A stretch of 64,000 bases of DNA, from contig JAIXRO010000141.1 of NCBI GenBank assembly GCA_027485145.1, positions 1 to 64,000 on the forward strand. Direction: 5' to 3'. A program made the translations under genes and the position numbers. The DNA comes from Hyphomonadaceae bacterium (GTDB lineage: Bacteria; Pseudomonadota; Alphaproteobacteria; Caulobacterales; Hyphomonadaceae). Of the stretch, positions 34,180-64,000 are shown piece after piece. The notes beneath the pieces were generated by a model. That model did no database searches. It was given only the letters and a program-made list of their open reading frames with translations, and was not told the origin of the DNA. The stretch's first letter is position 1. Each line of letters opens with the position of its first letter.

Positions 34180-34647
34180 TCAACGCACCTCCCGCCTTTG
34201 GCCCCGGTCTCCGAACCACCAGAGGGTCGCCGCCGTCGCCGCAAAGGTGGTCGTCTCGATGATGCCTGCCCGGGCGTCCGCCGCCGCGCCGAGATAGACA
34301 AGACCGGTGATGATCCAGAGAAGCAACGTCAGCAATGGCCTTGTCAGGGCCCGGACTGCGTTCACCCACCTGTAGCTATCGCCGATGGCCGCTTCGGCCG
34401 CCATCGATGACGCGAGCCCTTGCCAGGCTCCCGCCGTTTGCGCGAGGTCTTCCTGCCCCGCGAGTTCAGATGCCCTCGCCTTCATCTGAAGTTCTACCAG
34501 CGCCGCTTCGTGCTTCCAGCGCGCTTGTTCCTGCGTGTTTTCCTGCCGGCGCTCAATCAGCCCGGCGATCCGCCCGATCACCGTGCCAAGAAGACCGAAA
34601 ACGCCGCCGCCCGCCGCGCTCGCGGCCAGTCCGATTATGTCCGCCAT
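34180..34647 (-). CDS. GTA-type 3TM holin-like protein (DUF3154/GTA_holin_3TM-like)
   Basis: N-terminal Gly-rich TM, charged amphipathic middle (ERRQENTQEQARWKHEAALVELQMKARASEL), then RWVNAVRALTRPLLTLLLWIITGLVYL; start overlaps the M15 peptidase stop. Confidence 0.68.
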   Translation of the reverse strand: MADIIGLAASAAGGGVFGLLGTVIGRIAGLIERRQENTQEQARWKHEAALVELQMKARASELAGQEDLAQTAGAWQGLASSMAAEAAIGDSYRWVNAVRALTRPLLTLLLWIITGLVYLGAAADARAGIIETTTFAATAATLWWFGDRGQRREVR

Positions 34648-35054
34648 GAGATTGCCGCTCCCGGGTAAGTCCATGCGGCGGGTGTCTTCCGCCGGTCGAG
34701 ATGAAGGAATGTCCGTCCACGGCCGATACCGGTGAAACCGCACGCCTTGGCGAACGCTAGGAGCGCGTGCCGGTCGTGGCCCGCGAGCGCGATATCCACG
34801 GCGATGCGCCGGTGACGCGATTCCACCGCGCCGCCGACCACCATGTTGCGCACCGCGCAGCGATGGCCGGAATTGATCCGGATTTTCTTGCCCACTTTTT
34901 CCCGCAGCGCCTCCAGCGCATCGAGGAATGCCGGGTCATGCCAGTATTCACCATGGCAGCCACCGGCCCTGCATTTGCAGGCCAGTTCCGCCGGGCGGAA
35001 ATGCGGCCAGCGCCAGCCAGCCATCGAAAAATCCTTGTACGAAGCAATCAGCAT
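34635..35054 (-). CDS. M15-type peptidase (phage endolysin-like)
   Basis: KKIRINSGHRCAVRNMVVGGAVESRHRRIAVDIA ... GFTGIGRGRTFLHLDRR matches M15_3 metal-binding motifs. Confidence 0.82.
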   Translation of the reverse strand: MLIASYKDFSMAGWRWPHFRPAELACKCRAGGCHGEYWHDPAFLDALEALREKVGKKIRINSGHRCAVRNMVVGGAVESRHRRIAVDIALAGHDRHALLAFAKACGFTGIGRGRTFLHLDRRKTPAAWTYPGAAISWRT

Positions 35055-35286
35055 TCCCGGATTATGCCTCCGCCCCGGACCCTGCCGGATTGGCGCTGCC
35101 CGAAAAAGTTCAGCGGCGAGCACGCTGCGCGGCTTCACATGCCTGTTTTCATGAAGGAAAAAGTCGATGCGCGGCGATGAAATATTTTCGCGACGGGCGC
35201 CGGAAATGGCCAGAAGTGAGGGATAAGCCGAAACTTATGCAACAAAACTCCGCCGTTCAGACCGGGTCAAACGAGAGCCAAAACGA

Positions 35287-35312
35287 GTCATCCCGGCTTT
35301 CGCCGGGATGAC
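35287..35312. repeat. REP-like hairpin GTCATCCCGGC-TTTC-GCCGGGATGAC
   Basis: Perfect 11-bp inverted repeat with 4-nt loop in the intergenic gap downstream of the 35343-36338 gene. Confidence 0.8.
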
Positions 35313-37064: not shown

Positions 37065-38117
37065 TCAGATCGTGGCGGGCCCGAAGATCGGCGTGTTGGT
37101 CCGGTCGAGCGCCGATGCGCGGGTGCGCGCCGGATCGTCGGCGGCCTTGTCGATGGCGGTCTCGGTTGCGGCGTCAGCAATGCCGGTCACTGGCAGGCCG
37201 TTCTCCTGCTGGAAAGCGACCACCGCCCGGCGGGTGGCCTGGCCGAAGGCGCCGTCCACGCCGCCGGTGGCGATGCCGAGGGTTTCGAGGTCCTGCTGGA
37301 GTTCGCGGACCCGGGCGCCCCTGCTGCCGACCTTGAGCGGCTTGAGCGAAGGCGGCTCGGGCGCGGCGGCTGCGGCGAGGATGGCGTCCTCCCGCGCAAC
37401 CGGCGCAAAGGTGTACGGCGTCTGGGTCACCGACAGCGCGGTTTCGGTCCATAGGATGCGCAGGTCCTCGTGATTGGCAGCGGCGGCCGCATTGGCATCA
37501 CCCCGGTTGACGGCGCGCGACACCTTCACCGCATCGTTGGTGTCGGCAAGTTCGTTGAGGCGGTTGGTCTTCCAGAAGGCGGCGGCGACTTCGACCGACT
37601 TTTTGAGGTCGCGCTTGATGATGTCGGGATCGTTCGCGAGATCAATGCCGGCGGCTTCGCCATACCGAGTGTAGTTGTCCCGGCCGGTGAGCTGGATGAA
37701 GCCGCGGCCGCGGAATTTGTATCCGTCGCCCTCCTGCACGTTGCCGAGGTCGGCGCGGCCGCCATAGACGGTGTTGGCGATCAGTTCCGGCTTGCGGGCA
37801 TGCTGTTTGGCGAGGATCGGATTGCGGCGATAAACCCGGAACGTCTTCATCAGGCCTTCGGCGGAATAGCTGAAACCTTCCTCGGTGTATTTGAGCCAAC
37901 CGGTCTCAACCAGGCCTTGCCCGAAGAAGTGGCCAAGGCGCAAAGCCGTGTTGATTTCATAACGCTCGAGCACCTCCCACGACTCAATGATGGCCTTCAT
38001 GTAGCGGCCCTGGGTGCCGAGCTTCAGAATGTCCCAACCGTTGCGGCCGGGCAGAAGCCTCGCGATGCGGTCAAGATCGACATCGCCCACACCTTTGATT
38101 GTCACGAACATTGCCAT
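37065..38117 (-). CDS. GH19-like endolysin with C-terminal peptidoglycan-binding domain
   Basis: NTALRLGHFFGQGLVETGWLKYTEEGFSYSAEGLMKTF; YGGRADLGNVQEGDGYKFRGRGFIQLTGRDNYTRYGEAAGIDL; C-terminal LQQDLETLGIATGGVDGAFGQATRRAVVAFQQENGLPVTGIAD. Confidence 0.87.
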   Translation of the reverse strand: MAMFVTIKGVGDVDLDRIARLLPGRNGWDILKLGTQGRYMKAIIESWEVLERYEINTALRLGHFFGQGLVETGWLKYTEEGFSYSAEGLMKTFRVYRRNPILAKQHARKPELIANTVYGGRADLGNVQEGDGYKFRGRGFIQLTGRDNYTRYGEAAGIDLANDPDIIKRDLKKSVEVAAAFWKTNRLNELADTNDAVKVSRAVNRGDANAAAAANHEDLRILWTETALSVTQTPYTFAPVAREDAILAAAAAPEPPSLKPLKVGSRGARVRELQQDLETLGIATGGVDGAFGQATRRAVVAFQQENGLPVTGIADAATETAIDKAADDPARTRASALDRTNTPIFGPATI

Positions 38118-38187
38118 GTCATGCCCTCCCCACCGCCCGCAGTGCAGTCAGTATAGCAGGATTTGCAACAAATGGGTGACTGGCCGA

Positions 38188-38622
38188 TCAGTCCTGGGGA
38201 TCGCTGCCCTTTGTGCCCAGTAATCCACCAGCGAGGACGCCGGCCAAGGCCGCGATGATCAGCGTCTTGGTCGAACCACCACCGAGCGCGAGCCCGGTCA
38301 GCGTCCCCAGCGTGGCCTTCTGGCGCGCCTCGGCGACTTCCTTCGCGCGTTGTTCTTCAGCGCGGGCGGACAGGGAGCCGAACCAGAACACGATACCCGC
38401 CATGCCGACAAAGCCGAGGGCGATGATCGCGAGGGCGGCCCAGGTGCTCATGTGCTCGGCCAGGAAAAACGCGAGCGCGCCGACCGCCAGTACATAGGCC
38501 GTCAGCAGGAAGACAATTGCCACCAGCGTATAGCCTATGCCCTTCGCCCGCCGCGAGACGGCGCCGCCAACATCGACATTGGCGAGTGACATCAGCGAGG
38601 AGATCAGCGGCAGGAAGCGCAT
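38188..38622 (-). CDS. Holin-superfamily-like membrane protein
   Basis: 144 aa; paired TM helices AIVFLLTAYVLAVGALAFFLAEHMSTWAALAIIALGFVGMAGIVFWFG, adjacent to the GH19 gene. Confidence 0.6.
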   Translation of the reverse strand: MRFLPLISSLMSLANVDVGGAVSRRAKGIGYTLVAIVFLLTAYVLAVGALAFFLAEHMSTWAALAIIALGFVGMAGIVFWFGSLSARAEEQRAKEVAEARQKATLGTLTGLALGGGSTKTLIIAALAGVLAGGLLGTKGSDPQD

Positions 38623-38631
38623 GGCGCAGGA

Positions 38632-38976
38632 TCAGCGGCGCATCAGGAAGGCTGCGAGGAAGCCTACGCCGAATGCGACCAGCAGCGCCTCGAGCGGATG
38701 CTCGCGGGCCGTCTGGGTGACTTTCTTTTCAGCATTGCCGGCCTGCTTTTTCGCTTCAGCCAGAACGTCGCGAAGTTCTTCGATGACCTGCTGGGCGGGA
38801 CCATTGGCTATGGAACTGGAAAACTCGGATGCCTGCTTTTCCGCTTTGCCGGCGATCGCGCTCAACACCTCGTCGAGATCGGCGCGCAGGGAGGCGAGAC
38901 GGGCTTCGAGCTCTTCGGAGGTTTTTTCAGCCGCCGCTTTGACACGCTTGGCGGCGTTGGAAGACGAGTCGGACAT
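38632..38976 (-). CDS. YqjD/ElaB (DUF883)-like membrane-anchored protein
   Basis: Long helical region ending in REHPLEALLVAFGVGFLAAFLMRR, typical of the family. Confidence 0.75.
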   Translation of the reverse strand: MSDSSSNAAKRVKAAAEKTSEELEARLASLRADLDEVLSAIAGKAEKQASEFSSSIANGPAQQVIEELRDVLAEAKKQAGNAEKKVTQTAREHPLEALLVAFGVGFLAAFLMRR

Positions 38977-39138
38977 TCTGATCACCCATGGTTGGCGGTC
39001 CAGTCCGGCGAGGGGGCCAGGACACCGCGAGGCTGAGCATTCCGATACGCCGGAACACTGAACTTACAGTATAGAACATGGATGAAATTGGGCGTGCTAG
39101 CCAATTCACGCAGGTGGAGAACCTGTAATGCAGCCGCC

Positions 39139-62820: not shown

Positions 62821-64000
62821 TTACAAGTAAGGTGATCCGGGACCGATTGAAAGCCATTCACCTCTCCGCCCGTCGGGTCCGACCTCGGCCACGCGCATTG
62901 CAATCGTTCCGGCTGGCACGCCGTAGGTGGCAGCGTCCAACTCAAGCGCGCCGCCAAACCCGCTGCCGGTGTCGAACTCGGCAACGAAACGCCCGATATT
63001 GGGCCCCTCGGCGAAGGTCCAGCTGTCGGCAATATCCGGCCCGCGCCGCAACCAGTTGGCAACGCCGCCGCGCACCCGCAAATGGCAAGCCTGCCAGGGC
63101 AAGGACGCCCGCCGGTCAAAGCGAAGGATCTGCTCGCCCGAGGCGCCGCGCGCCCGCCACCGGAGATCCATCCCAGGTTCGGCCCCGGACACATTCGCCC
63201 GCTGAACGGCAGTGTCCAGCAGCACGAGGCGCGCCCCCGCCGCCGCTGGCCCGCTTCGGCTGCCACCCTGCCCGCGCAACAATCCGCCCAGCTGCCATTC
63301 GTCCGGACCGGTCAATTCGGCCTCGGTGAATTGCAGGAATTCCCATCCGTCCGCTGTCTCGAGCAGCGCCGCATTGCCGCCCGCCAGCACCGCCGCAACC
63401 GGCAGGCTGGAAAATGAACCGGTCACCGCACGCACATGCAACCGCCCGTGATGATCCCATCGCCCCACGGGACCAGTACCCACGGCAGACAGCAAACGCC
63501 CGATCACCGCCGGCTGCTCAAGCCGCGCGCGCTCCGTCAGATCATCCGCCGACGGACCCGCCAGCACCGCCAACTCACCCGGCCAGGGATCGGCGAATGC
63601 CGCCACAACCGGTCCGTCACCCGGCAAGGCGGCGAGCGCCGGCGCGTCGATCACCACGAGATCCGGCTCCGGAAACACCGCCGCCGCATCCGGCACGCCG
63701 AGCTCGGCAATCCCGCGCGCGCGCGGCAGCGATTGCGCAACTTCGGTCAACGCGAACTGCCGCCGGACGCCCTCGTCCGTCACGGCATCAATCCGCCAGA
63801 CCTTTCCGTCGCCCGTTTCGATCCAATCGCCCGTCTCAAACGCGGCCAGGCTTGGCCCGGACGTCACCTCGGCCGTCTGCATCCGGGCCGACATGTCCAG
63901 CAAGTGCCGGGCGACCGCTTCCGCCCGGCTCCGGGACAGCGCCATCGGCAGCATGACATCCGCGACCAGCCGCGCATCGCCGTCGCCGCGCCGCGCATCC
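62821..64000 (-). CDS. C-terminal part of a GTA host-specificity ('megatron', RcGTA g15-like) tail protein, 5' end outside window
   Basis: Frame is open to the right edge (DARRGDGDARLVADVMLPMALSRSRAEAVARHLLDMSARMQTAEVTSGPSLAAFETGDWIETGDGKVWRID...); RARLEQPAVIGRLL..., GPDEWQLGGLLRGQGGS and RDRRASLPW-type C-terminus resemble GTA/phage tail-tip proteins. Confidence 0.72.
   Translation of the reverse strand, partial: DARRGDGDARLVADVMLPMALSRSRAEAVARHLLDMSARMQTAEVTSGPSLAAFETGDWIETGDGKVWRIDAVTDEGVRRQFALTEVAQSLPRARGIAELGVPDAAAVFPEPDLVVIDAPALAALPGDGPVVAAFADPWPGELAVLAGPSADDLTERARLEQPAVIGRLLSAVGTGPVGRWDHHGRLHVRAVTGSFSSLPVAAVLAGGNAALLETADGWEFLQFTEAELTGPDEWQLGGLLRGQGGSRSGPAAAGARLVLLDTAVQRANVSGAEPGMDLRWRARGASGEQILRFDRRASLPWQACHLRVRGGVANWLRRGPDIADSWTFAEGPNIGRFVAEFDTGSGFGGALELDAATYGVPAGTIAMRVAEVGPDGRRGEWLSIGPGSPYL

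Follow-up and report, generated by a model that had tools for sequence, protein, structure and literature searches.

Two overlapping genes at positions 34180 to 35054 of the analyzed DNA most probably form the lysis module for the RcGTA-type gene transfer agent (GTA) that this bacterium encodes; the module would have been relocated from the structural genes but would still belong to the GTA regulon. Judging from the sequence comparisons, we put the probability of this reading at roughly 85%. GTAs are tamed viruses whose particles carry DNA from cell to cell. The first-pass annotation had proposed that the pair is a GTA release cassette encoded apart from the structural cluster and using an M15 enzyme where RcGTA has a muramidase, and the comparisons favored that proposal. 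We base the reading on the promoter element that the pair has in common with GTA genes, on the loss of the pair together with the GTA, and on a phage-like gene order, all three of which are independent of how the genes are labeled. Throughout, the window is the whole stretch analyzed, positions 1 to 64000 (64 kb) of a 73.5-kb contig that ends at position 73528.

Table 1. Positions of the lysis gene pair, its upstream signals, and the GTA gene within the window
Feature	Position	Strand	Remarks
Probable holin gene	34180..34647	-	155 aa; start overlaps M15 stop
M15_3-type peptidoglycan endopeptidase (endolysin) gene	34635..35054	-	139 aa
-10-like CATAAT	35061..35066	-	6 nt before M15 ATG; direct sequence reading
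GTA-type promoter element AATCCGGCAGGG, -35-like	35080..35091	-	37 nt before M15 ATG
Terminator-like hairpin, NMO to cassette	35287..35312	-	11 pairs, 8 GC
GTA gp15 (GTA_TIM/megatron), C-terminal part in window	62821..64000	-	Whole gene 62821-66453, past window end

The gene pair and its surroundings

Both open reading frames named in the first-pass annotation are present on the minus strand, where the stop of the first and the start of the second overlap by 13 bases (34635-34647), and its description of an M15-like lytic enzyme was correct. The product of the first gene belongs to PF08291 (Peptidase_M15_3), which it matched with an E value of 2.8e-19 and 69.7 bits against a curated cutoff of 23.2 bits. 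It also matched endolysin families of PHROG, with phrog_894 (endolysin) at 1.4e-23, and a profile comparison linked it to the muramoyl-pentapeptide carboxypeptidase structure PDB 1lbu (1.2e-7). Residues H81, D87, and H118 of the M15 zinc site (HxxxxxD...H) are the presumed zinc ligands and were invariant in 18 homologues, as was D120. No signal peptide was seen in the sequence. These matches identify the product as a putative M15_3 endopeptidase, which would be expected to cleave peptidoglycan.

The second product has three hydrophobic segments by hydropathy (about residues 4 to 31, 100 to 124, and 127 to 145) with an amphipathic middle between them, and its gene was located directly downstream of the M15 gene wherever both were present. 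All 18 members of its family that we compared matched phrog_6637, an uncharacterized phage family, and the alignment across genera contained 42 invariant columns. No characterized homologue was found, and a tblastn search of the phage collection gave no match. The GTA-type 3TM holin label given to this protein in the first-pass annotation was not confirmed: PF11351 (GTA_holin_3TM) scored 17.4 bits (E value, 0.0064), below the curated 24.8 bits, any match to this family was seen in only 4 of the 18 members, and an hhalign comparison of the family profile with 18 genuine PF11351 proteins returned a probability of 7% over 18 columns, covering only an RP-transmembrane motif. With a score under the threshold and no profile-profile support, membership in PF11351 is not supported. 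A genome search of G000 likewise gave no PF11351 match. The predicted structure was of too low confidence (pLDDT of 58) for a fold search. Because phrog_6637 is uncharacterized and the PF11351 threshold was missed, we infer a holin from the position, size, and hydrophobicity of the protein, and we refer to it as the probable holin. The arrangement is that of a phage-type holin-endolysin cassette, in which an endolysin gene is adjacent to and cotranslated with a gene for a small multipass membrane protein, as judged from the overlap, the three hydrophobic stretches, and an order kept across families. In a comparison of loci L013 and L009 (genomes G055 and G056), the dS of the holin gene was 0.66, versus 0.07 for the flanking M15 gene and 0.03 for the nitronate monooxygenase (NMO) gene, a pattern that resembles allelic replacement of the holin alone.

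The pair is surrounded by metabolic genes, as originally described, including those for NMO, a SnoaL-like protein, glycerol kinase, and CMD, and no integrase, structural phage gene, or prophage remnant was found adjoining it. The hairpin between NMO and the cassette suggests a transcription start specific to the cassette. The putative GTA tail gene that had been placed about 28 kb away proved to be gp15, with the domains PF13547 (GTA_TIM; 1.9e-118), PF13550 (Phage-tail_3), and PF23666 (Rcc01698_C). Behind it are gp14 (NlpC/P60), gp13, gp12, gp10, an HK97-type capsid gene, and the portal gene, which runs to the contig end; the pair thus lies at that distance from a standard RcGTA-type cluster. 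Linkage of the pair to the GTA cluster was seen in many relatives, at distances of about 24 to 70 kb. A second phage-type lysis-like set is present on the minus strand at 37065-38985 and consists of a gene for a GH19-like endolysin with PG_binding_1 (37065-38117; phrog_181, 6.6e-60), a holin-X-like PF07332 gene (38188-38622), and a DUF883-like gene. These three genes were considered as parts of the cassette and set aside, because the GH19 gene is kept where the pair was lost and thus does not track the GTA.

A promoter element common to the pair and the GTA genes

The sequence AATCCGxCxGGG was common to the regions upstream of M15 in much of the genus, mostly with the ATG 36 to 38 nt away. In GTA loci from 18 genomes of the genus (124 kb in total), 13 copies of its strict form, AATCCGRYNGGG, were found, 9 of them upstream of the portal gene and 4 upstream of the terminase gene; unrelated loci of this genus, totaling 195 kb, contained none. 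Within the window the strict form occurred once (expected, 0.3), at the site upstream of M15. To avoid circularity, we built a position weight matrix (PWM) from 18 portal promoters only, and of about 128,000 window positions the best was 35091 on the minus strand, which is the M15 site. Significant scores with this matrix were obtained upstream of M15 for 20 of 30 genomes (weak in the other 10) and upstream of the DUF2793 fiber gene for 13 of 21, mostly 123 to 131 nt from the domain; upstream of NMO, the control gene, there were none in 25 genomes. Because the genomes are related, these counts do not represent independent events.

In a second genus, the element took the form AATYN-N-TCCGMC and was found at both the GTA terminase and the M15 promoters. 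Its form differed in other genera, with the GTA and M15 promoters resembling each other within a lineage; for example, those of G078 carried AATCAATCCGACCGGGTTCG and AATCAATCCGACGGGGTTCG, and those of genus g3 carried TCCGAC with CTAGTCT. At the sequence level, the common element strongly supports coregulation of the pair with the GTA structural genes, and it predicts a GTA regulon made up of several loci. The spacing of the -10-like sequence predicts that the M15 mRNA would be leaderless or nearly leaderless. The GTA promoter of Caulobacter crescentus has a GafYZ-dependent -35 element, AATCAT (PMC11150451), and the AATC start of the element described here shows a resemblance to it that is suggestive only. 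No full CtrA sites (TTAA-N7-TTAA) were present upstream of M15 among the genomes listed. The GafA/GafZ domain PF20057 was found in 17 of 105 family genomes, none of them in the genus of the window. Upstream of the portal in this genus (L086 and L093), either a ParA-like gene of opposite orientation lies between terminase and portal or no terminase gene was found within 6 kb (L086); in several genomes, both GTA parts carry the AATCCG element.

Distribution, co-loss, and origin of the pair

Among the 105 family genomes, the M15 gene was present in 65 and the membrane protein gene in 76, and where both were intact they were adjacent, in the same order, and beside the same NMO gene. The pair was also present in two further families and thus occurs in at least three families of the order. 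Median dN/dS values of about 0.25 for both genes (0.24 for M15 and 0.26 for the probable holin in GTA-positive genomes of the genus) indicated purifying selection. We scored 42 genomes of the genus for GTA_TIM and portal as GTA markers. Both markers were full length in 17 of the 42, and the pair was intact in all 17; neither marker was present in another 17, of which 5 had an intact pair and 12 had lost it or carried a broken version; the defects were a missing M15 gene, frameshifts, truncations, or clean removal that left NMO in place. Partial markers were found in the remaining 8 genomes, 6 with an intact pair and 2 with a broken one. The co-occurrence with the GTA that the first-pass annotation would lead one to expect was therefore found (Fisher test, 2.3e-5), and within the genus the pair was lost only where the GTA was missing or defective.

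On a tree built from NMO and methylmalonyl-CoA mutase, the minimum number of state changes was nine for the pair and twelve for the GTA. Eight independent tree pairs gave 3 to 5 concordant and 0 discordant cases, so few that the strict tree sign test alone did not fall below 0.05; random placement of losses according to branch length spared all 17 GTA-positive tips with a P value of about 1 to 2e-4. The GH19 lysin gene, 2 kb away, was retained in genomes without the pair, which shows that loss of the pair was not general decay of the neighborhood. Four of the five GTA-less genomes with an intact pair also carried the fiber gene, and recent loss of the GTA could account for these exceptions. 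The GTA-positive genome G029 has lost M15 and kept the fiber and holin genes, the GTA-positive genera g4, g5, and g10 were without the pair, g8 had a distant M15 only, and nearly all sampled genomes of family f2 were without it; not every GTA carrier, then, has the pair. Beyond the family, co-occurrence within the order carries little weight as evidence, since GTA_TIM is present in about three quarters of all genomes sampled. In one f2 genome (L306, G422), the gene preceding a distant holin relative encodes a GH19 lysin rather than M15, an endolysin swap.

Gene order suggests where the pair may have come from. A gene for DUF2793, a domain of the RcGTA tail fiber rcc00171 (PMC8265664), whose gene family coevolves with GTA genes (PMC10883770), was located directly upstream of M15-holin at the NMO site in three genomes of the family (G013, G026, and G032), and other family genomes had fiber-holin without M15 at this site. 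The order gp15-fiber-M15-holin was found in the RcGTA-like viral contigs L219, L223, and L224, and gp14-gp15-M15-holin was found in L218/L227. In the simplest history, the GTA ancestor would have had fiber, endolysin, and holin genes at the distal end of its late operon, and this end would have moved to the NMO locus, some 25 to 70 kb from the head-tail cluster, after which some lineages would have lost or shifted the fiber gene while the pair stayed under GTA control. A g7 genome carries a second RcGTA-like element (L107; G080:C27:38000-50000) with gp14, gp15, a short DUF2793 protein, M15, and a small transmembrane protein, and it looks like a GTA-like prophage.

Proposed exit route, alternatives, and known systems

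If the pair is the GTA release cassette, lysis would begin with activation of the GTA regulon, probably through binding of a GafA/GafYZ-type activator to the AATCCG..GGG element. The M15 endopeptidase would then build up in the cytoplasm, because it is without a signal peptide, until the cotranslated membrane protein opened the inner membrane as a holin. The enzyme could then cut the peptide cross-links in peptidoglycan, and the producer cell would burst and free the GTA particles.

Three other explanations were weighed. M15 endolysins beside holins are common in phages, and another phage-type lysin is located nearby (37065-38117), so the pair could be the remnant of an ordinary prophage that had no connection to the GTA, now drifting at this locus. 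We consider this very improbable: a single orthologous site upstream of NMO is kept across genera and families, dN/dS is about 0.25, integrase and structural phage genes were not found alongside, loss of the pair follows loss of the GTA, and M15 carries the GTA promoter element. A domesticated module for autolysis or wall remodeling with a role of its own, such as stress-induced lysis or release of eDNA, and with only a loose tie to the GTA, would fit the five GTA-less genomes with an intact pair, and a general stress factor could read the element. However, every GTA-intact genome of the genus has kept the pair, the element is found at GTA operons and at the GTA tail fiber gene but hardly anywhere else in the loci scanned, the nearby GH19 lysin persists where the pair is gone, and the five exceptions, four of which keep the fiber gene, could be recent GTA losses. 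This explanation thus appears improbable.

It is also conceivable, though unlikely, that the pair is linked to the GTA but that its second protein is an antiholin, a spanin-like protein, or a scaffold, with M15 reaching the wall by another route. The low PF11351 score, the 7% profile comparison, the low-confidence structure, and the lack of a characterized homologue are compatible with this idea, whereas the three hydrophobic stretches, the translational overlap with an endolysin that has no signal peptide, retention with the fiber gene even where M15 is lost, and the same position in phage lysis ends argue for a holin.

Read as a GTA release cassette, the pair can be compared with several known systems. 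The RcGTA lysis locus of Rhodobacter capsulatus, rcc00555/rcc00556, encodes a lysozyme and a holin and is controlled by GafA and CtrA together with the GTA genes (PMC9638019, PMC3423380). Both are two-gene endolysin and holin loci away from the head-tail cluster, but here an M15 endopeptidase takes the place of the rcc00555 lysozyme, the holin belongs to another or a very distant family, and the endolysin gene comes first with the holin gene overlapping it. The GTA of C. crescentus works without a holin-endolysin pair, and a LypABC lysis hub, a CARD-NLR-like protease system, was documented for it in 2026 (PMC13236601). That system also is a separate locus that kills GTA producers for particle release in a related alphaproteobacterium; however, the module here is of the classical phage type, and a domain search found no LypABC-type domains in its two proteins. 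In RcGTA-like prophages of Methylobacterium nodulans, the tail fiber and endolysin genes adjoin the head-tail cluster, and the endolysin is a homologue of rcc00555 (PMC11409702). These prophages and L219, L223, and L224 have fiber and endolysin genes beside the head-tail cluster, but as phage or prophage operons; here, 28 kb separate the lysis end from the cluster, and the element has been domesticated. Phage M15 endolysins encoded next to a holin, such as that of Vibrio phage pVp-1, belong to the same enzyme family and follow the same two-gene logic, but they show at most about 44% identity and come from ordinary phages with other holins.

From these comparisons, we think it likely that GTAs of the Hyphomonadaceae and sister families exit by means of a domesticated M15 endolysin and a holin of a new family (phrog_6637), split off together with the fiber gene from the operon of the ancestral GTA phage and held in one regulon by a lineage-specific element. 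There would then be at least three GTA exit systems in alphaproteobacteria: the rcc00555/556 lysozyme-holin, LypABC, and M15-phrog_6637. The last would be a third, conserved cassette beside the exits documented for Rhodobacter and Caulobacter in the literature consulted; a promoter element links it to the structural genes, and it offers a concrete target in culturable Hyphomonas strains. Such a cassette suggests an early origin of the phage-type lysis end within the order, with other solutions in use in some lineages. No report of an M15-based GTA lysis cassette or of the NMO-adjacent locus was found in a literature search that covered papers outside subscription. No spanin was identified. In two loci of family f160 (L299 and L301), two genes, one for an OmpA-like protein and one for a membrane/coiled-coil protein, are located between NMO and M15-holin, and their products are possible outer-membrane lysis partners.
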